From the NCBI RefSeq assembly GCF_022848905.1, contig NZ_JAFIRA010000001.1, positions 186,001 through 250,000 of the forward strand: a stretch of 64,000 nt of DNA, given 5' to 3'. Position numbers and translations under genes: made by a program. This document shows positions 2,691 through 50,093 of the stretch, one piece after another. Position 1 is the stretch's first letter; each line of letters opens with the position of its first letter. The notes beneath the pieces are model-generated. The model was not told the origin of the DNA. It saw only the letters and a program-made list of their open reading frames with translations, and ran no database searches. Source of the stretch: Thermostichus vulcanus str. 'Rupite'. Its GTDB lineage: Bacteria > Cyanobacteriota > Cyanobacteriia > Thermostichales > Thermostichaceae.

Positions 2691-3887
2691 CTAGCCCCCC
2701 ACAGCTTGAAGCTGTGGAGTATTCATGGAGTTCAGGGGATTGCCAACTACCCCATCCCCTGAGCCGACCGCACCCATTACAGATATGGCTTCTTTTAGAC
2801 TCAGAGGACATGAGAATCCGTCCCACTGGGCTAGGTTCATAGCCGCGTTCCAGTCGGCATCACAGCAATACCCGTCCTGCCCAGTGAACAGATGCCCACT
2901 CCTTTTCCCAATGGCCTCCGGCCCTGCGGAGCAGATCAATCCTGTCCTATGGTCGGTTTTGGATGTGTAGGCAGCAGGACGTTTATGCAGCGTCCTACCT
3001 GCCAGCTCCAGCTTGTAGGCAACCTTCCACTCCAAGTCGTAGTACGACCAGGTGTGCCGTGACTTACCGGCATCCGAACGCGCCTTTCGACTCTGTCTGG
3101 ATTGGCGGATACCCGAGAGGTCTTCCATCCACACATCCGCATTTACCGCCTTGGCAAACCGCACAATGCGGCGGCTCACGGTGTGGTTGACTGCCCTCAT
3201 CCACCGGGCTTCTTTGCGCTCCAGTCGCTTGAGTGCTCGGTATTTACCCGCCTGTTGCAACTGGGCACGACGCTTCTGGAAACGACGACGACGGTGGGCT
3301 ATCTCCCCACCGCCAAAAAACACCGCTCGACCCCAACGGGTGGCCGCTACTGCCAAACGGTTCTGCCCCCGGTCAACACCTAACCGCTCCGTACTCTTCA
3401 CTTCGGGAACTTCCCAAGTGATAGATAGAACGGCATACCAAGCCCCGCGTATTTGCATCAGCTTCAAGGTTCCCCGTTCACAATCCTGTTCGGCCAGGAT
3501 GCGCTCAAGACGCTCGGCATAGTAGGAACTGCTAACCTCAAGGGGAACCCGCTTGTCACCCTGAATTGTGGGAAAACTCACTGAGTAGGTGCTGCCTACT
3601 TTGTGCAGCTTCCAGTTTTGGTTGTTGACCTCTGGCCAGAATACTTTGAAGTGCTTGACCCGCTGGCCGGCTTTCCCCTTCAGGACACGAATCACCTGGT
3701 TGGAGAGGGCCGACTTGAGGGGTGTCACCACTTTGGCGGTTGTTAATGCTTTTCGTTCCTTTGGACTGATGCGGAGCAGTTCGTTTGCCAGTGCGGTTGT
3801 CGCCCAAACCGTCTGGGCAAACATCTCTGCTTTGACCGCGTTGAGATCAAGAAACTTGAGCTTGAGTGTGGTGGTGACCCGTTTCAT
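2691..3887 (-). CDS. tnpB: TnpB-type RNA-guided nuclease homologue of an IS605/IS1341-like element
   Basis: A 398-residue TnpB-like protein with a RuvC-type nuclease core. The three acidic residues are visible: D172 in GVDRGQNRLAV, E255 in WMEDLSGIR and D345 in DADWNAAMN. Known TnpB proteins use an RNA made from the transposon right end to cut DNA next to a short motif, which preserves the element at its donor site. The zinc-ribbon region between E255 and D345 is unusual. The normal two CxxC pairs are absent: the first reads TSKTDHRTGLIC and the second DGYCCDADW, leaving only C319, C341 and C342. The reading frame is intact, so the catalytic core may still be selected. The ATG at 3887 opens with MKRVTTTLKLKF, a good family N-terminus. 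Confidence 0.85.
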   Translation of the reverse strand: MKRVTTTLKLKFLDLNAVKAEMFAQTVWATTALANELLRISPKERKALTTAKVVTPLKSALSNQVIRVLKGKAGQRVKHFKVFWPEVNNQNWKLHKVGSTYSVSFPTIQGDKRVPLEVSSSYYAERLERILAEQDCERGTLKLMQIRGAWYAVLSITWEVPEVKSTERLGVDRGQNRLAVAATRWGRAVFFGGGEIAHRRRRFQKRRAQLQQAGKYRALKRLERKEARWMRAVNHTVSRRIVRFAKAVNADVWMEDLSGIRQSRQSRKARSDAGKSRHTWSYYDLEWKVAYKLELAGRTLHKRPAAYTSKTDHRTGLICSAGPEAIGKRSGHLFTGQDGYCCDADWNAAMNLAQWDGFSCPLSLKEAISVMGAVGSGDGVVGNPLNSMNTPQLQAVGG

Positions 3888-10874: not shown

Positions 10875-12182
10875 TCAGAGGCTAAGTTCACCCCAGAGAA
10901 CCTTTCCCTGTCGCATCGTCATCAACACATCAGCCGGGGTGACCCGGGTCAGGATAGACGCAATCACATGCCGACTGGCCCGTAAATGGGGCCGTGTGAA
11001 ATCTAGCACCACCAAATCGGCGGGCAACCCCATCTCCAGGTAGCCATACACATCGGATCCCAGTAGGGGCCGCAACCCTTGGATATTACTGGTGACCATT
11101 TTCAGGATCTCCACCGGCTGGGGGCGCACCGCATCTCCAAATTGGCTTTTGGCCACTTTGTAGGTGAAGTCCAGTTCGGCTAAGAGGTTAGGGCTATTCA
11201 AAAGTCCATTATCGGTGCCCAGCAAGAGGTTGGCTTGGCTTTCCAGTAGTGGGGCAATGGGCGGCAGAGGCAGGCCCAAGTTGGCGTTGGCGCGAGGGTT
11301 CAGAGCCACATTGACGCGATGCTCCGAGAGCAATTGAATCTCAGCCGCATTGGCTACCGTGGCGTGGATCACCAAATGGGGATGGTAAAAATCGAGCGCT
11401 CGCTCCAAATCTCCCCGTCCACTGATGGCCAGACTCACCTGCCGATAGCCCTCGTTTTCCAGGCAGTGGATGGCCCGGATTTTGCCCCTCTCTTCGGTGA
11501 GGTGATGGATTTGTTTCCATGCGGGTTCTGTCAGGTCGTTCAGGGTGCTTTCGGAAAAGCCATCCGCCACCGCCAGAATGTCTTGCAATTCTTGATAAGC
11601 TCCCGCGCCTAAGGGATCCCGATTTTGCTGCAATTGCTCGGCTGTAAAGGGCACACTGTCGAATTGGCTCAGAATCACCGAATGAATTCCCGTCTGGGCT
11701 GCTGCTTCTCGGAGGAGGTGACAGCCATAAACGCCCTGCTCTCGAAAGTCAATGTGCCGAATTGTGCCAGTAGCCGCCATGTAGGTGAGGTGGGCGGTGA
11801 TGTGCTCCAGATGCTGTGGTCGCGACTGTTTGGCCAGTTCCCGATATTTGTAGCCATGGGGCCGGAAAAATCCCTCTTCCAAAGTCATGCCCGTCGCCCC
11901 ATCCGGCAGGCAGCTATCCCCCATGTGGGTGTGGCTATTGGTAAAGGCGGGTAGGATCACCCAAGAGCCTCTTTCCAAGCTTTGAACCGGATCCCCCAGT
12001 TCCATGCGGGTAATCGTATCTTGGTCAACCACAAAGTGAGAACAATGATGGGGAATGAGATCTGGACCAGCCAGAACCACACCGTCTCGTAAATGAAAAT
12101 TCATCGTTTCAAAGCTCAGGGAACGAGGGCAGACGGGAACCTTTGCGGGCAGAAGGGTCTTCTGCTGACACAAGGGCAGCAT
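10875..12182 (-). CDS. Amidohydrolase-superfamily deaminase/hydrolase, substrate unknown
   Basis: A metal-dependent hydrolase of the cytosine-deaminase / SAH-deaminase / chlorohydrolase branch of the amidohydrolase superfamily. The metal and catalytic residues can be followed: HxH in TNSHTHMGD, later histidines in RAIHCLENEG and LVIHATVANA, and the aspartate in LLGTDNGLL. The C-terminus (GLPADLVVLDFTRPHL) is the usual small beta-domain. The gene is divergent from the BMP transporter operon with an NtcA-type box between them, which suggests it acts on the imported compound or a product of it. Two starts are possible: ATG 12182 (435 residues), or ATG 12104 (409 residues), which begins where family similarity starts (NFHLRDGVVLAGP) and which I slightly favour. 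Confidence 0.75.
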   Translation of the reverse strand: MLPLCQQKTLLPAKVPVCPRSLSFETMNFHLRDGVVLAGPDLIPHHCSHFVVDQDTITRMELGDPVQSLERGSWVILPAFTNSHTHMGDSCLPDGATGMTLEEGFFRPHGYKYRELAKQSRPQHLEHITAHLTYMAATGTIRHIDFREQGVYGCHLLREAAAQTGIHSVILSQFDSVPFTAEQLQQNRDPLGAGAYQELQDILAVADGFSESTLNDLTEPAWKQIHHLTEERGKIRAIHCLENEGYRQVSLAISGRGDLERALDFYHPHLVIHATVANAAEIQLLSEHRVNVALNPRANANLGLPLPPIAPLLESQANLLLGTDNGLLNSPNLLAELDFTYKVAKSQFGDAVRPQPVEILKMVTSNIQGLRPLLGSDVYGYLEMGLPADLVVLDFTRPHLRASRHVIASILTRVTPADVLMTMRQGKVLWGELSL

Positions 12183-12205
12183 CAGCGCCTTGAACCTAAG
12201 AGATT

Positions 12206-12247
12206 GTAGCTGAGGCTACGAAAACTTGTGGATAGAGGTCATTAAAT
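12206..12247 (+). promoter_or_regulatory. NtcA-type promoter of the BMP transporter/formamidase operon
   Basis: GTAGCTGAGGCTAC at 12206-12219 matches the NtcA operator GTA-N8-TAC, with palindromic halves. A -10-like TTAAAT lies at 12242-12247, 22 nt further on, the spacing of class II NtcA-activated promoters. A nearly identical 14-mer (one base different) precedes cynA. The box is 24 nt from the outer start of the divergent amidohydrolase, so it may influence both directions. Binding is inferred. Confidence 0.7.
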
Positions 12248-12347
12248 CCAGTAGCAGCAAATTCGGGTTTACCACACCCTACCCATGTCAGAATCGCACA
12301 CCCTCCGCTGCCCTTAACCCCCTGTAGGAAGTTCCTTCACCCATAGG

Positions 12348-13508
12348 ATGCCCAAGATGAGCCAGTCCCCATTTCGCCATCTGTATACCCGCCGGCAGAT
12401 TATTCGTACCGGTGCTGCCGCCGCTGCTTTTACCCTAACTTCACAGCTATGGCGTGCCCAGGCCCAAAGCAAAGAGATCACCATCGGCTTCATTTACGTG
12501 GGTCCCAAAGATGACTTCGGCTGGAACCAAGCTCATGCGGAGGCCAATGTCGCTTTATCAAGTTTGGATTGGGTGAAAACCGTCGAAGAAGAAAGTGTAC
12601 CGGAAACGGTGGCTGTGGAAGAATCGATGCGGGCCATGATCGAGCAGGATGGGGCAACGGTGCTCTTCCCCACCTCTTTCGGTTACTACGATCCGCATGT
12701 TCTGAAGGTGGCGCGAGAATATCCAGAGGTGCAATTCTTCCATGCGGGCGGCCTCTATATCGAAGGGGTTCACCCCGAAAATGTCGGCACCTACTTTGGC
12801 TACCTAGATGAAGGTCACTACATCAACGGCGTGCTGGCCGGCTCTATGACCAAGAGCAACCGCCTTGGGTTTATTGCGGCTAAGCCGATCCCCCTGGTGC
12901 TGCGCAACATCAACAGCTTTACGCTCGGGGCTAAGAGCGTTAACCCTGACATCACCACTCAGTTGATCTTTACCGGAGATTGGGCCTTACCGGTTAAAGA
13001 GGCGGAAGCAGCCAACAGCATGGCTGACCAAGGAATTGACGTGCTCACCTGCCATGTGGACAGTCCCAAGATTGTTATCGAAACGGCAGAACGACGCGGC
13101 TTGATGAGCTGTGGCCACAACACCAGTCAGGCAGCTTTGGCTCCCAATGGGTATTTGACGGGTGCTGAGTATGACTGGACGAGTGTGTATACCCAGTTTG
13201 CTGAAGATATTCAGGCGGGCAAGACCTTGATGAACGGCGGGATCCCTCACCTGATTCGGGGGGGTATCAAGGAGAAATTCATCAAGACCTCTCCCTGGGG
13301 ATCCGCTGCCAGTGACGAAGCCAAACAGGCTGGGGAAGCGGCTCTGGCTCAGTTGCAAGCGGGATCATTGGTGATTTATAAAGGCCCCCTCAAAGACAAC
13401 ACCGGCAAAGAGGTAATACCTGCGGGGGTGGAATATGGCCAGCGGGCGATTGAGTTGGAATCCATGGATTACCTAGTGGAAGGCGTCATCGGGAGCACCT
13501 CCAGCTAA
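12348..13508 (+). CDS. BMP-family ABC transporter substrate-binding protein
   Basis: A 386-residue periplasmic binding protein of the Bmp/Med family, a group that often binds nucleosides or related heterocycles. It has a twin-arginine signal (YTRRQIIRTGAAAAAF, cut after AQAQ). The mature part starts EITIGFIYVGPKDDFGWNQA, the typical BMP opening with the conserved D-GWN segment. Other family segments are VLFPTSFGYYDPHV, GTYFGYLDEGHYINGVLAGSM and AKPIPLVLRNINSFTLGAKS. An alternative start at ATG 12357 has AGG closer upstream. It is the first gene of a four-gene operon and overlaps the first permease by one base (TAATG). Nitrogen control is suggested by the upstream NtcA-type box. Ligand unknown. 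Confidence 0.88.
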   Translation: MPKMSQSPFRHLYTRRQIIRTGAAAAAFTLTSQLWRAQAQSKEITIGFIYVGPKDDFGWNQAHAEANVALSSLDWVKTVEEESVPETVAVEESMRAMIEQDGATVLFPTSFGYYDPHVLKVAREYPEVQFFHAGGLYIEGVHPENVGTYFGYLDEGHYINGVLAGSMTKSNRLGFIAAKPIPLVLRNINSFTLGAKSVNPDITTQLIFTGDWALPVKEAEAANSMADQGIDVLTCHVDSPKIVIETAERRGLMSCGHNTSQAALAPNGYLTGAEYDWTSVYTQFAEDIQAGKTLMNGGIPHLIRGGIKEKFIKTSPWGSAASDEAKQAGEAALAQLQAGSLVIYKGPLKDNTGKEVIPAGVEYGQRAIELESMDYLVEGVIGSTSS

Positions 13509-14596
13509 TGGCAACCACCACTTCTCCTGTTTCACCCTCGGCTCCTCTGCGTTGGCGTTCTAGCCTAGAGCCGATCCTGCTGCCCTTTGGGGCTTTGTTG
13601 GCCTCGCTGGTGATCTTTGGTTTGTTCTGTGCAGTGGCTGGGGCTAACCCCTTCGCTGTTTATGGCTCCATTTACCGGGCCGCCTTTGGCAGTTGGTTCT
13701 CTTGGCAAAATACCTTGCAACGGGCCGCTCCCCTGATGTTGGCCTCGCTGTGTACGATCCTGCCTGCTCGCATGGGTTTGGTGATCATCGGCAATGAGGG
13801 GGCACTGGTCATGGGGGGAGTCGCGGCTGTGGCGATGGGACTCTGGGCGGGATCCCTCCCCCCTGCGGTGGTGGTGTTCCTGATGGCTTTGGCGGGCATT
13901 GTGGCGGGGGGCCTATGGATTATGGCGGTGGGTGCGTTGCGCCACTATCGGGGGGTGAACGAAACCATCAGCAGCCTGTTGATGAATTACATCGCCATCG
14001 CCCTGATGAACCACTTGGTCGGGGGGCCATTGCGGGATCCCAGTTTCCTCAGTAAGCCCTCCAGCTTTGCCATTGATGAGGCCAATATGCTGGGTCGGCT
14101 GTTTGGTACCCGCATTCACTTTGGCTTGGTGTACGGCATCGTTGCCTGCCTGATTGCCTATATCTTGATTCAACGCACGACGTTGGGCTTTTCGGTACGG
14201 ACGGTGGGAGGTAATCCGAAGGTGGCCCGGATGGTGGGCATTGCCGTGGGCAAACTCACGTTGCTGATCACCTTCTTGGCGGGATCCTGTGCTGGCTTGG
14301 CAGGGATGGTGGAGGTGGCAGCTGTACACGGGCGGGCCAATGAGTCCTTGAGTGTGGGCTATGGCTACAGTGGCATTCTGGTGGCTTTTATTGCTCGGCA
14401 AAACCCAGCGGCGGCAGTGGTGATGGCCATCCTGTTGGGGGGGATTCTGGCCAGTGGCAGCATTTTGCAGCGCTCCCACAATCTGCCGGATGCCACCGTG
14501 CTGGTGTTTCAGGGGATTGTCTTTTTGCTGATCCTTTACAGTGAGTCCCTTTACGGGCGGTTTGACTTTTTCCGGGATCGGGAGGCCGGAGAATAG
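13508..14596 (+). CDS. ABC transporter permease, BMP/nucleoside-type, first subunit
   Basis: A 362-residue polytopic membrane protein with about eight to ten hydrophobic helices, beginning LLPFGALLASLVIFGLF. It is a branched-chain-amino-acid-permease-like (BPD_transp_2) subunit of the YufP/NupB class: IIGNEGALVMGGVAAVAMG, then the loop VGGNPKVARMVGIAVGKLTLL with the ATPase-contact region, and GYGYSGILVAFIARQNP. Its ATG overlaps the stop of the binding-protein gene, so the two are translationally coupled. A partner ATPase (NupA/YufO type) is normally encoded between binding protein and permease, but there is none here. Confidence 0.88.
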   Translation: MATTTSPVSPSAPLRWRSSLEPILLPFGALLASLVIFGLFCAVAGANPFAVYGSIYRAAFGSWFSWQNTLQRAAPLMLASLCTILPARMGLVIIGNEGALVMGGVAAVAMGLWAGSLPPAVVVFLMALAGIVAGGLWIMAVGALRHYRGVNETISSLLMNYIAIALMNHLVGGPLRDPSFLSKPSSFAIDEANMLGRLFGTRIHFGLVYGIVACLIAYILIQRTTLGFSVRTVGGNPKVARMVGIAVGKLTLLITFLAGSCAGLAGMVEVAAVHGRANESLSVGYGYSGILVAFIARQNPAAAVVMAILLGGILASGSILQRSHNLPDATVLVFQGIVFLLILYSESLYGRFDFFRDREAGE

Positions 14597-14723
14597 CAGC
14601 ATAAGCCCATGAACTTTTAGAGTGATCAGACTTATCCGTTTTGGGTTTCTACTGCTTGCTTGAGCCCAGGAGTCAGCCGGATTTTGATCTCATAGTTCGC
14701 TTTTTCTTCGGAGATTTGGACAG

Positions 14724-15671
14724 ATGACAACAGAAGCGCTGGGATGGTGGGGAGTCCCTTTGGCGGTGGTGGCAGGAACCCTGCGGGGTAGCGCACCTTT
14801 TCTCTTCGTCAGTTTGGGGGAATGCCTGACCGAAAAGAGCGGCAAAATTAACCTGGGTTTGGAGGGATCCCTGTTGATGGGGGCGATGAGTGCCTATGCC
14901 ATTTCCTTCCTGACTCAAAATACGGCTGGCACCATAGTGGCCCCATGGTTAGGGGTATTGGTAGCTGGATTTGCTGGGTTGGTTTTGGGTGGGATCCACG
15001 CTTTTCTGGCTCAACAACCCCGAGTTAACGATGTCGCGGTGGGCATTGCCATGATTATTTTTGGCAGTGGGATGGCCTTTTATTTGGGTAAACCTTTTAT
15101 TCAACCCGTAGCGCCTCAGTTACCGGCTTTTGAGCTGGGCAATTGGAGCAGTAATCCTGCTATTCGTGCTGCCCTGAAACTCAGTCCACTGCTGTTGCTA
15201 GGGATCCTCCTCGCCTTTGCCATGCACTGGTTCTTTCGGGCCACCCGTTGGGGGCTATTTGTGCGGGCTGTTGGGGATAATCCGGATGCGGCACGGGCTA
15301 TGGCCATTTCGGTGCCCAAGGTACGGGCCTTGTGCATTATGGCGGGCAGTTTCTTTGCCGCTTTGGGAGGTGCTTATTTGTCGCTATACTACCCCGGCAG
15401 TTGGACGGAGCGCATTTCCAGTGGACAGGGCTTGATGGCGGTAGCTCTGGTGATCTTTGCCAAGTGGAACCCGTTGCAGTGTTTGTTGGCGGCCTTCTTG
15501 TTTGGGGGTGCACAGGCGATTGGGCCAGCCCTCCAGTCGGTGGGTGTACAGTCCAATTACTACCTGTGGAATGCCGCGCCTTATGTGCTGACCTTGGGGA
15601 TCATGATCCTCACCAGTTCTCCACGGCGGACTTTGGCGGGGATGCCTGGGGCTTTGGGTACCGGGAAGTAA
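14724..15671 (+). CDS. ABC transporter permease, BMP/nucleoside-type, second subunit
   Basis: A 315-residue membrane protein of the YufQ/NupC class. Recognisable segments are GSAPFLFVSLGECLTEKSGKI followed by NLGLEGSLLMGAM, QPRVNDVAVGIAMIIFG, VRAVGDNPDAARAMAISVPK and YPGSWTERISSGQGLMAVAL. These are the standard partners of BMP binding proteins. It lies 127 nt after the first permease on the same strand; the spacer shows no promoter I can support, so I treat it as part of the operon. The formamidase gene follows 40 nt later. Confidence 0.88.
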   Translation: MTTEALGWWGVPLAVVAGTLRGSAPFLFVSLGECLTEKSGKINLGLEGSLLMGAMSAYAISFLTQNTAGTIVAPWLGVLVAGFAGLVLGGIHAFLAQQPRVNDVAVGIAMIIFGSGMAFYLGKPFIQPVAPQLPAFELGNWSSNPAIRAALKLSPLLLLGILLAFAMHWFFRATRWGLFVRAVGDNPDAARAMAISVPKVRALCIMAGSFFAALGGAYLSLYYPGSWTERISSGQGLMAVALVIFAKWNPLQCLLAAFLFGGAQAIGPALQSVGVQSNYYLWNAAPYVLTLGIMILTSSPRRTLAGMPGALGTGK

Positions 15672-15711
15672 CCTAACCGATTCCATCTTCATTCGATAAA
15701 GGATTCTGATC

Positions 15712-16755
15712 ATGAGCGGACTTGGTGGCCTCAATAAAACCCCCAATGGCGTTGTACTAGGACTGGTACAACTACAGCTACCGAATGTCGTTACCCCTGA
15801 TGATCTGGCGGCGCAAACCCAAAAGGTGGTCAGTATGGTGGGGAAAGCCCGCCGCAATATGCCCAGCATGGATTTGGTGGTCTTTCCAGAGTATGCTTTG
15901 CACGGCCTGTCGATGGATACCAATCCTGAGATTATGTGCAAGTTGGATGGGCCGGAAGTGGCTGCCTTCAGTGCCGCCTGCCGAGAGCATGATCTTTGGG
16001 GCTGTTTTTCAATTATGGAATACAACCCCCACGGCAATCCCTACAACAGCGGCATTATTCTGGACAATAAGGGGGAGTTGCAACTGTACTATCGTAAGTT
16101 ACATCCCTGGATCCCAGTTGAACCCTGGGAACCGGGAAATTTAGGGATCCCCGTCTGTGATGGCCCCAATGGCTCCAAGATTGCCCTGATTATTTGTCAT
16201 GATGGCATGTTTCCGGAAATGGCGCGGGAATGTGCCTACAAGGGGGCGGAGATTATGTTGCGCACAGCGGGATACACGGCTCCGATTCGTCATAGCTGGC
16301 AGATCACCAATCAGGCCAATGCGTTTTGCAATTTGATGGTCACAGCTTCTGTCTGTATGTGTGGATCGGATGGCACGTTTGATTCGATGGGTGAGGGCAT
16401 GATTTGTAACTTTGATGGCACCCCTTTGGTGATGGGATCCCATCGCCCCGATGAGATTATTACTGCCGAGGTACGCCCGGATTGGGTGCGGGAAGCTCGC
16501 ATTCATTGGGGTGTAGAAAACAACATTTACCAGTTTGGCCATCGTGGCTATGTGGCGGTCAAAGGGGGAGCGCAAGACTGCCCCTACACCTATATGCAGG
16601 ATTTGGTGAATGGAGTCTACCGCCTGCCTTGGGAAGATGAGGTGATCCACAAAGATGGCAGCGCCTGCGGGTTTCCCCCTCCCACCCGTACCTATCAGGG
16701 ATCCTCCATCACAGAGGCGTCCTACAGCGGTTCTCCTTTGAAAGAAATCTCTTGA
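15712..16755 (+). CDS. amiF: Formamidase (nitrilase superfamily)
   Basis: A 347-residue nitrilase-fold amidase. It resembles the AmiF formamidase of Helicobacter closely along its whole length: VVFPEYALHGLS, FSIMEYNPHGNPYN, YYRKLHPWIPVEPWEPGNLG, ALIICHDGMFPEMARE, ENNIYQFGHRGYVA and RLPWEDEVIHKDG. The catalytic triad is visible as Glu in FPEY, Lys in YRKLHPW and Cys in ICHDGM. The enzyme splits formamide (possibly other short amides) into formate and ammonia in the cytoplasm. Being last in the BMP-type transporter operon under an NtcA-type promoter, it probably releases ammonia from an imported compound or its breakdown product. AmiE-type aliphatic amidase is the alternative; the C-terminal segments favour AmiF. 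Confidence 0.85.
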   Translation: MSGLGGLNKTPNGVVLGLVQLQLPNVVTPDDLAAQTQKVVSMVGKARRNMPSMDLVVFPEYALHGLSMDTNPEIMCKLDGPEVAAFSAACREHDLWGCFSIMEYNPHGNPYNSGIILDNKGELQLYYRKLHPWIPVEPWEPGNLGIPVCDGPNGSKIALIICHDGMFPEMARECAYKGAEIMLRTAGYTAPIRHSWQITNQANAFCNLMVTASVCMCGSDGTFDSMGEGMICNFDGTPLVMGSHRPDEIITAEVRPDWVREARIHWGVENNIYQFGHRGYVAVKGGAQDCPYTYMQDLVNGVYRLPWEDEVIHKDGSACGFPPPTRTYQGSSITEASYSGSPLKEIS

Positions 16756-16829
16756 TACTTCAACAGCTCAAACCCGACAAGATTTCGCTCAAACGTAATC
16801 GGTTTTGCAGGGATCCGTCTTTGCGCTAT

Positions 16830-16863
16830 CGGTAGAGTTTTAGAGGGGATCCCCTTTCTACCG
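16830..16863. other. Stem-loop downstream of amiF
   Basis: CGGTAGA (16830-16836) pairs with TCTACCG (16857-16863) and encloses a GGGGATCCCC palindrome. No T-run follows. It may end or stabilise the amiF transcript. The remaining spacer up to 16980 shows nothing I can name. Confidence 0.3.
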
Positions 16864-16995
16864 GTAGTCTGTCTTGCCATTTTGATGAGCATTTCTTGAC
16901 CGTGCCATGCTCTGAAACTCTGGCACAGGTCGGCAAGAAAACTCAGCCAGTGATAAAACAGGGGCAAATCGGCAGAGCTTAGGAGGTTTGTTGTG

Positions 16996-17145
16996 ATGGC
17001 TCCATTACAACTCAAAGTCACTCGCAAGATCTTGGCTGCATTGGTATTGCTCGTGGGTCTGGGGCTTTTGTCCGCCTGTGACGATGGCGGTGGCACTAGC
17101 ACCGTCAGCCCGCCCAGCATCACCCCTACACCAGTTAGCGAATAG
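16996..17145 (+). CDS. Very small lipoprotein (49 residues)
   Basis: ATG 16996 is preceded by AGGAGG at 16981-16986, a perfect ribosome site at a 9-nt spacing. The product has a basic start (MAPLQLKVTRK), a hydrophobic helix (ILAALVLLVGLGLL) and a lipobox LSAC at residue 28, then a short mature tail of about 21 residues rich in Gly, Ser, Thr and Pro (CDDGGGTSTVSPP). It should be a membrane-anchored peptide, released after lipidation as little more than an acylated tether. The next lipoprotein gene begins 7 nt after its stop. Function unknown. Confidence 0.65.
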   Translation: MAPLQLKVTRKILAALVLLVGLGLLSACDDGGGTSTVSPPSITPTPVSE

Positions 17146-18393: not shown

Positions 18394-18436
18394 GTAACGC
18401 TGAATACCAAAGTTAACGGTTTGTAATCGCTAAGGT
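18394..18436 (+). promoter_or_regulatory. NtcA-activated promoter of the nirA-nrt-nar cluster
   Basis: GTAACGCTGAATAC at 18394-18407 fits GTA-N8-TAC exactly. TAAGGT at 18431-18436 fits the -10 consensus TA-N3-T after a 23-nt spacer. This is the canonical class II NtcA promoter architecture, placed 28 nt before the nirA ATG. Confidence 0.85.
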
Positions 18437-46430: not shown

Positions 46431-46475
46431 GTAGCTGATGCTACAAAACAAGCCAAAAGCGTAATCTTCTAAATT
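46431..46475 (+). promoter_or_regulatory. NtcA-type box upstream of the cyanate operon
   Basis: GTAGCTGATGCTAC at 46431-46444 fits GTA-N8-TAC with perfectly palindromic halves. It differs by one base from the box at 12206. TAATCT (46462) and TAAATT (46470) are -10 candidates, but neither has the ideal 22-23 nt spacing (17 and 25 nt). The remaining 357-nt gap 46366-46722 would be a leader of about 240 nt with no gene I can support. Confidence 0.6.
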
Positions 46476-46722
46476 TTGTCCTGATTTAGAGAAAATATCT
46501 CCTTGTGATCGGGAACGGTATTTCCAAAAGAAGCCGCTAGGATATTCTCAATGCTGAAGGAAACATTGAAGCGGGCCTGGGTGCGCCTCATTTGCGGATT
46601 GCGGTGAGCGGGATACCAGAGAGAGTTTGGTTTGCTTTCCCACAGATCCTGTTACGCGGGCCCAGGTTAGATCTGACTGTCTGTTCTCCCTCGTTTGCCC
46701 TTTTGAGATGGGTACAGGTTTT

Positions 46723-48276
46723 ATGCAATTCTCCATGGACAAACTCTTCACTCTTGATTTACAACGCTGCGCCTGTGGGGGCTTTCATGCTTCCCAAGAT
46801 CACAGTGAATTTTTCGCGTCCATGCCCCAAAATCCAGCGGACTTGGCAGATGACTTGATCAAAATGGGGGTTTACAAGCCACAGGTGTTGAAACTGGCGG
46901 ATCAGATCAGCCGCACTGAGATGCTAGAGATGCTGGTTTTGGAGCGGTTTAGTCGGCGCAACCCCGAAAAGGAGCCGATCTTGCGGGAGATGATCCGGCA
47001 GGCGGGGGGCCTCGATCAAGCGATGGTGGCGGCATTTGGCCCCCAAGCCTCTGAGTTTTTCACGGATACCCTACGGGCTGGCCCCTACTCGCGGCGGCGC
47101 TTTTTGACCCAGGTAATGGTGGCAGCTTCGGTAATCGGGTTGACGGCCACGCAAGGGCACCCGGAACTGTCTACTCAAGCTCAGGGATCCCTGGAAAAAA
47201 CGGATCTGCGAATTGGGTTTATCCCCATCACCTGTGCCACTCCGATCATCATGGCGGAACCCCTAAAGTTCTACGAGAAGCACGGGCTGAATGTGCAGGT
47301 GGTAAAAATGCCCAGTTGGGCTGCCGTGCGGGATTCGGCCATCGCTGGGGAACTGGATGCCTATCACATGCTCTCCCCGATGCCCATTTCCATCACATTA
47401 GGCCTGGGATCCACTGCTTTCCCCATTAAGCTGGCCAGCATCGAGAACATCAACGGCCAAGCCATTACTGTGGCCAACAAGTACAAAGACACCCTCAAAG
47501 GCCCTGCCGACTTCAAAGGCTTCACGATTGGGGTTCCTTTCCCCTACTCGATGCACAACCTCTTGATCCGCTACTACCTGGCCACGGGTGGTCTTAATCC
47601 CAATACCGATGTGCAGATCAACCCCGTGCCACCTCCGGATAGCGTGGCTCGTCTGACGGTGGGGGATATTGACGCCATGTTGATGCCGGATCCCTTTAAC
47701 CAGCGGGCGGTGTTTGAGGGGGTGGGCTTCCTTCATATGGTTAGCAAAGATCTGTGGCCGGGACACCCCTGCTGTGCGTTTGCGGCCAGCCAAAGCTGGA
47801 TCGATGCCAACCCCAACACCTTCCGCGCTGTGAACAAGGCGATCATTGATGGGGCCAACTACGCCAGCCAAGCAGAAAATCGAGCCGAGATCGCCAAAGC
47901 CATTTCCCCACGGGAGTTCCTCAATCAGCCGGAGGAAGTGGTTGCTGCTGTGCTGACGGGCCAGTTTGAGGATGGCTTGGGCAATACCTTCGACATCCCC
48001 GACCGCATTGATTTTGATCCCTACCCGTGGCAGAGCTTTGCCTACTGGATCACCAGCCAGTTGGTGCGCTGGGACTTTTTGCCTGAAGCCGATGCCGATT
48101 ACTCTCAGATTGGTCAGGACATCTTCTTGACGGATCTGGCCCGTGAGCTGGCCCAGGAACTGGGACAAACCCCACCGACAGAAACGCTGCGAACCGAGAC
48201 CCTGATGTTCGATACGTTCGATCCCAGCGATCCGGCTGCCTACATTCAGGCTCAGATCGAGCGGTTTGGGGTTTAG
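46723..48276 (+). CDS. cynA: Cyanate ABC transporter binding protein with unusual N-terminal extension
   Basis: An NrtA/CmpA-type binding protein of 517 residues. The binding domain starts LRIGFIPITCATPIIMAEPL and shows AYHMLSPMPISITLGLGS, IGVPFPYSMHNLLIRYYLA, PVPPPDSVARLTVGDIDAML and DPFNQRAVFEGVGFLH. Genes for a permease, an ATPase and cyanase follow, which makes cyanate the likely ligand. A twin-arginine motif (YSRRRFLTQVMVAASVIG) appears only after about 120 residues; ahead of it is a soluble segment with RCACGGFHASQDHSEFF. No plausible start codon lies just before the Tat motif, so the extension is really coding. ATG 46708, 46723 and 46735 are all possible starts. Confidence 0.82.
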   Translation: MQFSMDKLFTLDLQRCACGGFHASQDHSEFFASMPQNPADLADDLIKMGVYKPQVLKLADQISRTEMLEMLVLERFSRRNPEKEPILREMIRQAGGLDQAMVAAFGPQASEFFTDTLRAGPYSRRRFLTQVMVAASVIGLTATQGHPELSTQAQGSLEKTDLRIGFIPITCATPIIMAEPLKFYEKHGLNVQVVKMPSWAAVRDSAIAGELDAYHMLSPMPISITLGLGSTAFPIKLASIENINGQAITVANKYKDTLKGPADFKGFTIGVPFPYSMHNLLIRYYLATGGLNPNTDVQINPVPPPDSVARLTVGDIDAMLMPDPFNQRAVFEGVGFLHMVSKDLWPGHPCCAFAASQSWIDANPNTFRAVNKAIIDGANYASQAENRAEIAKAISPREFLNQPEEVVAAVLTGQFEDGLGNTFDIPDRIDFDPYPWQSFAYWITSQLVRWDFLPEADADYSQIGQDIFLTDLARELAQELGQTPPTETLRTETLMFDTFDPSDPAAYIQAQIERFGV

Positions 48277-48375
48277 ACCCCCGGGTGGGATCCCATCTGT
48301 TTGGCTTGAACAGTTGTTGCGGATCCCGTCCTTTAAGATTTCTTTAGGTTTTCTCCTTCACCCGTCGGAGGTAGT

Positions 48376-49206
48376 ATGGCGTCTTCTTCCGTGTCGCCAG
48401 GGCGATGGATCCGTTCAATTTTGCCCGATACCAATCAGCAGGCATTGGCCTTGTTCGTGCTCTCGTTCCTCCTTATTTTGGGGGTGTGGGAAGCTGGAGC
48501 CCGCTGGGGTTTGTTTTCTCCGTTAATGCCCCCCGCCAGCAAGACCCTGGTGGCCATTTGGGAGTGGATTTCGGATCCCTTTTATGATTATGGCCCCAAC
48601 GACAAGGGGATCGGCTGGCATCTGCTGGTGAGTTTGCGGCGGGTGGCGATTGGTTTCACGATCGGCTCCTTGATTGCGATCCCGTTGGGGGTGCTGGTGG
48701 GCCTTTCAGAGGTAACCTCACGGGCGATTGACCCCTACATTCAACTGTTGAAGCCGGTCTCGCCCTTGGCCTGGCTGCCATTGGGTTTGGGGATCCTGAA
48801 AAGCTCGGAAAATACCGCCCTGTTTGTCATCGCCATTACCAGCATTTGGCCGACTCTGATCAACACCAAGTTTGGGGTCAGCAATGTGGATCAATCCTAT
48901 TTGAATGTGGCTCGTTCCCTGGGGGCTTCTCGGTGGCGCACCATATTCAAGGTAATTTTGCCTGCTGCTGCACCCAACATTGTGGCTGGTTTGCGCATCA
49001 GCATTGGGATTGCTTGGTTGGTGATTGTGGCTGCGGAGATTCTGGTGGGGGGAACCGGCCTTGGCTATTTTGTGTGGAATGAATGGAATAACCTGCAAAT
49101 CACCAGCATCATCACCGCAATTGTTGTTATTGGCATGGTGGGTTTGTTGCTGGATCGCTTATTTGGTTTGTTGCAGCAATGGGTCGCGTTTGGGTCCAGA
49201 TCATGA
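48376..49206 (+). CDS. cynB: Cyanate ABC transporter permease
   Basis: A 276-residue BPD_transp_1 permease with about six helices (ALFVLSFLLILGVWEAGARW, VAIGFTIGSLIAIPLGVLVG, ISIGIAWLVIVAAEILVGG) and the coupling loop NVARSLGASRWRTIFKVILP. It resembles NrtB but lacks the N-terminal extension seen at 21561. GGAGG stands 4 nt ahead of ATG 48376, a rather short spacing. It overlaps cynD by four bases (ATGA). Confidence 0.88.
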   Translation: MASSSVSPGRWIRSILPDTNQQALALFVLSFLLILGVWEAGARWGLFSPLMPPASKTLVAIWEWISDPFYDYGPNDKGIGWHLLVSLRRVAIGFTIGSLIAIPLGVLVGLSEVTSRAIDPYIQLLKPVSPLAWLPLGLGILKSSENTALFVIAITSIWPTLINTKFGVSNVDQSYLNVARSLGASRWRTIFKVILPAAAPNIVAGLRISIGIAWLVIVAAEILVGGTGLGYFVWNEWNNLQITSIITAIVVIGMVGLLLDRLFGLLQQWVAFGSRS

Positions 49207-50093
49207 TGGTTACCTCGACTGCTTATTCTTCGTCCTCTGGCTCTGTCGGCTCGGAGCGGATCCCGCAACTGCAACTACGCCAGGTCACCAAGATCTATTC
49301 CGGTCGGCGTGGCCTGATGGATCGAATCATTGGTCGGGCTTCGGTTGATTATGCGGCCCTCTCTCCCATTGATTTGGTGGTGGAGGCCAATACCTTTGTC
49401 TCGATCATCGGCCCCTCTGGCTGCGGTAAATCTACATTGCTAAATATCATCGCTGGGCTGTCGCAACCGTCTACTGGCCAGGTGCTGATCAACGGTGAGG
49501 AAGTTCACTCTCCCGGCCCAGATCGCGGCATTGTCTTTCAAAACTATGCCCTCATGCCCTGGATGACAGTGGAGGAAAATATCCGCTTTGCAGTGGAAAC
49601 GGTTCACCCCCAAATGCCCTTGGCTCAGCAGAAACAGGTGGTGCAATCGTTTGTCGACTTGGTGGGGTTGCGGGGGGCAGAGAAGAAACATCCTCATGAG
49701 CTGTCGGGTGGGATGAAACAGCGGGTGGGTATTGCTCGGGCACTGGCGATTGATCCACAAATTTTGCTGATGGATGAACCGTTTGGAGCCTTGGATGCCT
49801 TGACCCGTGGTTTTCTTCAGGATGAAATCGAGCGGATCTGGGAGTCACAGCGGAAAACCGTCATTTTGATCACCCACAGCATTGAGGAAGCCCTGTTGTT
49901 GTCGGATCGGATTGTGATGATGACCCGAGGGCCAGGAGCACGTATTGCTCAAATTTTGGATGTGCCATTTGCCCGTCCGCGTCACCGAGATAGTTTGGAT
50001 CAGCAGCCAGGCTATCACGAGCTGAAGGCAGCGATGGAACAGCATCTCTCCCAAGAAACCCGTGCCGTTGAGGAATCACGCATCCGGGTTTGA
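49203..50093 (+). CDS. cynD: Cyanate ABC transporter ATPase
   Basis: A 296-residue ABC ATPase with Walker A GPSGCGKST, Q-loop VFQNYALMPWM, signature LSGGMKQR, Walker [14 protein letters not shown] and switch VILITHSIEEALL. I take ATG 49203, which overlaps the cynB stop as ATGA, as the coupled start rather than the in-frame ATG 49179 inside cynB. An unusual insert before Walker A (RRGLMDRIIGRASVDYAALS) also occurs in some NrtD/CynD-like ATPases. cynS follows after 72 nt. Confidence 0.88.
   Translation: MMVTSTAYSSSSGSVGSERIPQLQLRQVTKIYSGRRGLMDRIIGRASVDYAALSPIDLVVEANTFVSIIGPSGCGKSTLLNIIAGLSQPSTGQVLINGEEVHSPGPDRGIVFQNYALMPWMTVEENIRFAVETVHPQMPLAQQKQVVQSFVDLVGLRGAEKKHPHELSGGMKQRVGIARALAIDPQILLMDEPFGALDALTRGFLQDEIERIWESQRKTVILITHSIEEALLLSDRIVMMTRGPGARIAQILDVPFARPRHRDSLDQQPGYHELKAAMEQHLSQETRAVEESRIRV

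Follow-up and report, generated by a model that had tools for sequence, protein, structure and literature searches.

A putative split biuret/triuret-type uptake and amidase cluster behind an NtcA-type promoter in the cyanobacterium Thermostichus vulcanus str. 'Rupite'

Sources of biuret and triuret are oxidised uric acid and urea fertiliser (available text of PMC7948467). The triuret pathway proceeds from TrtA, in some cases TrtB, through BiuH to AtzF and has been described for Herbaspirillum and for nitrifiers, the latter with a bmpA-nupABC transporter (PMC7948467 and PMC12625717, as far as available). In Rhizobium 3841, BiuH and AtzD are both encoded on pRL10 with no atzF close by, and the available part of PMC5806882 leaves the fate of allophanate open; R. 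leguminosarum is stated in the available part of PMC7948467 to have an operon with TrtA, BiuH and AtzF, and in these parts the two papers disagree on AtzF in that species. A tblastn search of the pRL10 stretch around the BiuH locus, 10 kb to either side, yielded no AtzF. A BMP-family binding protein of known structure, AtzT, holds guanine or 2-hydroxyatrazine (PMC6834077, in its available part). Described here is a cluster from Thermostichus vulcanus str. 'Rupite', located in a stretch of 64,000 nucleotides (contig NZ_JAFIRA010000001.1, positions 186,001 to 250,000), hereafter the window, that encodes a BMP-family binding protein, two permeases and an AmiF-family amidase. Judged from its sequence, this cluster probably belongs to a split nitrogen-scavenging operon of the biuret/triuret (oligo-urea) type, of which it forms the uptake half and one hydrolase gene, and its promoter is of the NtcA type.

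All elements of the cluster lie on the forward strand. The NtcA-type box GTAGCTGAGGCTAC (GTAN8TAC, 12206-12219, found by sequence inspection) is followed 22 nt downstream by the -10-like element TTAAAT (12242-12247). The first gene (12348-13508) encodes the BMP-family substrate-binding protein (PF02608, 125.7 bits), with a leader that we take to be twin-arginine-like. ATP-binding cassette (ABC) permease 1 (13508-14596) and permease 2 (14724-15671) both match PF02653 (BPD_transp_2, 111.1 and 122.1 bits) and show 63-77% and 64-82% identity, respectively, to the cyanobacterial loci mapped by tblastn. The last gene (15712-16755) encodes an AmiF-family amidase (CN_hydrolase, 130.4 bits), which reaches 578.6 bits on the NCBIfam formamidase profile NF009803 (cut-off 406) and thus passes the equivalog threshold; 'formamidase' is nevertheless a doubtful name for it, because it falls in a BiuH-linked clade apart from the canonical formamidases. 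Coordinates and profiles confirm the original prediction as to this arrangement on one strand. An ATPase gene was not found in the window cluster beside these genes. A terminator scan of positions 12000-17100 gave two candidates (6.0 expected), none of them after the AmiF gene, and a promoter scan of the same positions gave three (3.3 expected).

The same genes were traced in 386 cyanobacterial genomes drawn across the phylum, the window genome included. A relative of the BMP protein was present at E 1e-30 in 23 of them, 15 being close (57-67% identity, that of the window included) and eight distant (33-37%). BiuH exceeded its cut-off in 13 genomes, all of which also have a close BMP protein; the remaining two of these 15 are G215, with BiuH in two pieces, and G286, with no BiuH match at E 1e-40. 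AmiF was found at E 1e-60 in nine genomes, in six at 83% identity or more (the window genome included) and in three at 44-45%. All six of the former carry BiuH, one copy of which is broken. With the three genomes at 44-45% not counted as having AmiF, and uncorrected for the relatedness of the genomes, the co-occurrence of AmiF and BiuH corresponds to a Fisher probability of 7e-10 if the broken copy is counted and 1e-7 if it is not. The BiuH gene of G215 (locus L044, 6221-6909) is divided into two open reading frames (ORFs) by an internal stop, and the AmiF, ATPase and TrtA-like genes of that locus are open.

A scan of named genomes, one for each of 84,980 species, gave 220 places with a BMP match, the best 80 of which were kept and mapped by tblastn; by title 60 are cyanobacterial and 20 proteobacterial. 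Many of these loci lie on short contigs and the flanks extend to 10 kb at most, so that the absence of a gene holds for the mapped stretch alone and the counts of genes present are lower bounds. The fetched cyanobacterial loci show the order BMP, permease 1, permease 2, (AH_C), (AmiF), BiuH, ATPase, (cupin), TrtA, in which AH_C is the C-terminal domain of allophanate hydrolase as a free-standing protein and brackets mark genes that may be missing. In one of them, L041, BiuH reaches 417.6 bits on the NCBIfam profile for biuret amidohydrolase (cut-off 370), its nearest structure being 6azo, the crystallised BiuH; the TrtA-like protein stays under that cut-off (241.5 bits), and its nearest structure is 6xix, a cysteine hydrolase that we take to be the triuret hydrolase of Herbaspirillum. 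BiuH is in view in 24 of the 60 cyanobacterial loci, accompanied by TrtA in 18, cupin in 11, AH_C in nine and AtzF in none, and AmiF is present in 14 of the 60, in 13 of them together with BiuH and in the last at a contig end. Among the 20 proteobacterial loci, 19 have BiuH, with AtzF in 17, TrtA in 17 and cupin in 16; eight have AmiF, each time with both BiuH and AtzF. Wherever AmiF accompanies BiuH (13/13 cyanobacterial and 8/8 proteobacterial loci), it stands, among the tracked genes, after the second permease or AH_C and before BiuH. Because the gene order recurs so widely, the arrangement in the window is more than chance; uniqueness to this one genome, which would have spoken against the original prediction, does not apply, as proteobacteria and cyanobacteria of other families have the order too. 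One locus, L141 (8620-11190), has two tandem BMP genes heading a single operon. At L139 (5932-9540) and 16 further loci (17/60 cyanobacterial loci in total), a large protein is divergently encoded 5' of the BMP gene; it is related to a WD40 protein of L041 and occurs in L042 with an NB-ARC domain. A role as operon-specific sensor or regulator is possible, which would be unexpected for this type of protein.

Since the operon elsewhere runs on into BiuH, the window holds a front half. The other genes are distributed over further contigs of the same genome: BiuH (85% identity to that of L041, 424.8 bits) adjoins the ATPase gene (68%) on contig C34, the TrtA-like gene (69%) lies on C22, and AH_C (64%) on C49. 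The positions of BiuH with the ATPase and of TrtA mark the operon as split. The catalytic triad given in the available part of PMC5806882 consists of Asp, Lys and Cys, and alignment to the solved proteins shows this triad intact in both BiuH and the TrtA-like protein of the window genome. The window genome thus combines a BMP gene and two permease genes in the conserved order with BiuH, TrtA and ATPase genes elsewhere. It also encodes a second, more distant free-standing AH_C (L220, 6060-6455; 30% identity to the operon form), which adjoins a gene that looks regulator-like by eye. In the sister species (G388) the front half is found in the same gene order next to an identical promoter block. 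The ratio of nonsynonymous to synonymous substitution rates (dN/dS) between window and sister species is 0.025-0.042 for the BMP, permease 1, permease 2 and AmiF genes; the front-half genes are under purifying selection and hence used, which does not tell their ligand.

NtcA promoters have the motif GTAN8TAC followed by a -10 element TAN3T about 20-24 nt downstream, and the element in the window, at a spacing within this range, differs from TAN3T by one mismatch. By itself the box is weak evidence, because GTAN8TAC occurs ten times in the whole window (2.7 expected). Within 400 nt 5' of the BMP match the motif was present in 18 of the 60 cyanobacterial loci, related members of which are not independent; a first-order Markov model gave an expectation of 2.5 (maximum 7 in 300 simulations), simple shuffling of a somewhat longer stretch gave 6.4, and a coding control had the box in 3/60. 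None of the 20 proteobacterial loci has the box 5' of BMP (1.8 expected by shuffles). Between window and sister species a block of 81 nt, from 36 nt 5' of the box to beyond the -10-like element, is without change despite a coding dS of 0.51-0.77, and this conserved block against diverged genes is stronger evidence for the promoter than the counts of boxes. In the window genome, the AH_C gene likewise has an exact box, about 134 nt ahead of it. The original prediction of nitrogen scavenging under an NtcA-type promoter is therefore supported at the level of sequence.

Combined, these data suggest the following route. At nitrogen limitation NtcA would activate transcription of the operon. The BMP protein would bind a urea oligomer that is small and planar, to be imported through the two permeases with the ATPase encoded on C34, as family membership and gene order suggest. 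The TrtA-like protein and BiuH would then convert triuret to biuret and biuret to allophanate, as expected from orthology and intact triads, and the AmiF-clade enzyme, to go by its place in the gene order, would free ammonia by hydrolysing a pathway amide. In a biuret/triuret system there is nothing unusual about transport and first hydrolysis; the interest lies in the AmiF-clade enzyme.

The binding pocket was mapped through the AtzT contacts given in the available part of PMC6834077. The nearest solved relatives of the window protein are 3s99 (adenine-bound) and AtzT (6pi5), with which it has in common the family, the aromatic sandwich (Trp59, Trp212) and the Ser-Phe contact (Ser110, Phe111). 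In place of AtzT Asn218 and Asn220 it has His236 and Asp238, as does 3s99. The position of AtzT Glu165, which contacts the purine, is occupied by Leu183, so that the AtzT-type purine contact is lacking. Glu is found here in AtzT, 3s99 and 8/8 distant cyanobacterial BMP proteins, and Gln in 47/51 rows that have BiuH in view and in 40/45 that do not. The loss of Glu would fit a neutral, non-purine ligand.

Several observations weigh against the assignment to an oligo-urea operon. The pathway genes of the window genome are not contiguous with the transporter but lie on other contigs. TAN3T stands at the expected distance in only four of the 18 box-bearing cyanobacterial loci, and in the window genome no exact box was found in the 500 nt 5' of BiuH or the 400 nt 5' of TrtA. 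AmiF was not found in 11/24 cyanobacterial and 11/19 proteobacterial BiuH loci, so the pathway can do without AmiF nearby. In the pocket, Gln does not single out biuret, because it is just as much the residue of rows without BiuH in view, and among 96 other close rows Leu at position 183 occurs only in L052 of G286, the sole close-BMP genome without any BiuH match. Leu183 is a warning that the ligand in the window may differ from that of the typical operon. Locus L052 (5840-9149) consists of BMP, permease 1 and permease 2 with the same pocket Leu, and its transporter is possibly one of the same family with another ligand.

It is unlikely, on this evidence, that the cluster is a remnant in new use, the front half of a split operon retained for another ligand. 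Such an origin would account for the split, for a front half that is alike in two species, and for the unusual pocket residues His157 and Leu183, the latter common only to the BMP protein of the genome without a BiuH match; however, the genome still encodes orthologues of BiuH, the ATPase, TrtA and AH_C, the triads of both hydrolases being intact, and purifying selection, while marking the genes as used, is silent on the ligand.

Regarding the AmiF protein, a tree was calculated from 33 operon rows (32 distinct, some taken from one genome or from sister genomes; L138, whose AmiF is truncated, was left out) and six canonical formamidases, and the two sets form separate groups with support 100/100. 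The catalytic set of AmiF formamidases is Glu-Lys-Cys with a second Glu, and Glu60, Lys129, Glu137 and Cys162 are kept in all 39 rows. Seven residues (His131, Ala190, Pro191, Arg193, Phe205, Ser225 and Met226) are present in 33/33 operon rows and 0/6 canonical ones, and His64 and Asp224 in 32/33 operon rows. The altered stretches are the loop after Tyr188 (TAPIR vs STQVS/N) and that after Lys129; His131 and Arg193 may contact the substrate. By clade and by near-catalytic residues the window enzyme does not group with the six canonical rows. Compared with the AmiF formamidases of H. pylori (2dyu) and B. cereus (5g3o), it has in common the family, the catalytic residues and the profile score, and differs in forming a group of its own, at 41-53% identity to canonical formamidases (maximum 52.5%, Priestia), with altered loops. 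The canonical forms have different surroundings: on a plasmid of Klebsiella (K. pneumoniae) the gene follows urtABCDE, on a Priestia plasmid it has no transporter genes alongside, and in a marine picocyanobacterium it adjoins FmdA, with further neighbours that are fmdB- and urt-like by eye.

Formamide is a doubtful substrate of the window enzyme, because of the BiuH-linked clade and the changes near the catalytic residues. The original prediction of a formamidase acting on formamide is thus supported in family and profile and is at odds with a clade apart from the canonical enzymes that is paired with BiuH in the mapped loci; likewise, its scavenging of nitrogen from an imported compound holds, while breakdown to formamide becomes one of several options. 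An uptake system devoted to short amides, in which AmiF is a true formamidase that frees ammonia from formamide independently of biuret, would agree with the profile score well over cut-off, with the four catalytic residues, with the separation of AmiF from BiuH in the window genome and with the unusual BMP pocket. It is quite unlikely in view of the 33/33 operon rows set apart at positions 131, 190, 191, 193, 205, 225 and 226, the different settings of the canonical forms and a gene order that couples AmiF with BiuH. Purine or heterocycle import, as by AtzT and 3s99, with the divergently encoded amidohydrolase as deaminase, has in its favour the adenine, guanine or 2-hydroxyatrazine held by the nearest solved relatives, the Trp, His and Asp common to 3s99 and the window at three pocket positions and the weak matches of the amidohydrolase to atrazine chlorohydrolase and deaminase families, and was rejected as very improbable since the purine-contacting Glu of AtzT, 3s99 and the distant cyanobacterial proteins is lost and the amidohydrolase, while present in the sister species, was found at 40% identity or more in 0/100 other mapped loci.

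Within the preferred biuret/triuret-type operon, the step catalysed by the AmiF-clade enzyme can be assigned tentatively at best. The first candidate is allophanate, with free-standing AH_C finishing the reaction; formamide released from N-formylurea-like compounds is a less probable option, and another short ureide is about on a par with the latter. Against formylurea, TrtA acts on it at 0.3% of its triuret activity (available part of PMC7948467). A wider proposal is speculative: in Rhizobium 3841 and some cyanobacteria, AtzF, an enzyme of the amidase-signature type, would be replaced by free-standing AH_C together with the BiuH-linked 'formamidase', which would then be an amidase of the nitrilase superfamily acting on allophanate or another carboxylated ureide, commonly annotated as formamidase both on plasmids and on chromosomes. 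AtzF was absent from the stretches of all 24 cyanobacterial BiuH loci, and the best match in the window genome has about 222 bits (cut-off 511). Genome-wide, AtzF exceeds the cut-off in 8/386 cyanobacteria, one of which (G060) has BiuH; this corresponds to 1/13 BiuH genomes vs 7/373 others (Fisher 0.24), which is no significant depletion and speaks against the allophanate step. Further against allophanate, all eight proteobacterial AmiF loci and two gammaproteobacterial plasmids (order AtzF, BMP, permease 1, permease 2, AmiF, BiuH, ATPase, TrtA-type) also carry AtzF, and 11/24 cyanobacterial BiuH loci show neither AmiF nor AtzF, which weakens the idea that AmiF simply takes the place of AtzF. 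Moreover, among the matches listed (the best 40 of 494 and the best 60 of 279 plasmid records), at least five rhizobial plasmids (CP049733, CP050083, NZ_CP071681, NZ_CP140843 and CP140834) have AmiF and a 49% relative of AtzF about 200 kb apart. A doubtful candidate for the missing allophanate hydrolase is a second amidase-signature protein, encoded on contig C23 of the window genome and found at E 1e-80 in 63/386 genomes; it is present in eight of 14 BiuH genomes (the broken copy of G215 counted; Fisher 4e-4, relatedness not corrected) but absent from the other six.

The divergent amidohydrolase (10875-12182, reverse strand; PF01979, 80.3 bits) lies on the far side of the promoter, and comparison with the sister species places its probable start near 12107. 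At E 1e-60 it was found in two of 30 relatives searched (G000 and G388), the same two of the six genus members that possess AmiF. Its dN/dS is 0.067, that of nirA 0.060. It may act as an accessory enzyme on a related heterocycle, which is only a lead. Next on the 3' side of the cluster come a gene for a CAP-domain protein, nirA and the gene for an NrtA-like binding protein (NMT1 family), and beyond the latter, by eye, the remainder of a nitrate-assimilation cluster; nirA and the NrtA-like gene are also downstream of the operon in the sister species (L226). A GTAN8TAC box (18394-18407) stands ahead of nirA, which extends from 18464 onward. A further sequence at 46431-46444, GTAGCTGATGCTAC, is one base off the box at 12206 and lies upstream of genes (46627-50093) that by eye encode a second NrtA-like protein, a permease and an ATPase. 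An ORF of 398 amino acids (2691-3887), presumably resembling a TnpB/OrfB transposon protein, has a close paralogue (L217 from 12881), 47 of the first 50 residues being identical by eye.

If the proposed function is correct, the cluster would represent a cyanobacterial route to the nitrogen of oligo-ureas such as biuret and triuret. The fate of allophanate, left open for the BiuH of Rhizobium 3841 in the available part of PMC5806882, would find a directly testable answer in the neighbouring AmiF gene. Caution is due in annotation: 494 plasmid records match the window AmiF, 125 of them at 60-90% identity, a range in which 'formamidase' should be applied with care, and 33 of the best 40 of the 494 bear this name. 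Searches of open-access PMC text found nothing that joins 'biuret hydrolase' with cyanobacteria or with 'formamidase', and the text found on biuret, Rhizobium and cyanuric acid does not mention 'formamidase'; that on formamidase, cyanobacteria and NtcA, as far as available, concerns FmdA, another family. This agrees with the original statement that no cyanobacterial system with this gene combination had been described, the parent system being described in proteobacteria.

Among the known systems, the AtzT/3s99 type of purine-binding BMP protein differs from that of the window in its purine-contacting Glu165, for which the window has Leu; Asp in place of AtzT Asn220 is a feature that the window shares with 3s99. 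With the triuret pathway the cyanobacterial loci have in common the BMP-type transporter (nitrifiers) and two isochorismatase-like hydrolases; they differ in the lack of AtzF in view, in free-standing AH_C and in AmiF in about half of them, and the window genome in being split. The pRL10 locus of Rhizobium leguminosarum/johnstonii 3841 shares the order BMP, permease, permease, 'formamidase', its AmiF being 77% identical to that of the window. There AmiF is followed directly by BiuH (an isochorismatase family hydrolase), then atzD, the ATPase, a cysteine hydrolase (TrtA-like) and a cupin, all contiguous and adjoined by a GntR-type regulator; this biuret locus also adjoins a CmpA/NrtA-type transporter (L229). 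In comparison with these systems, the new part is, on the best reading, a split, NtcA-linked form of the known biuret/triuret utilisation system in a cyanobacterium.

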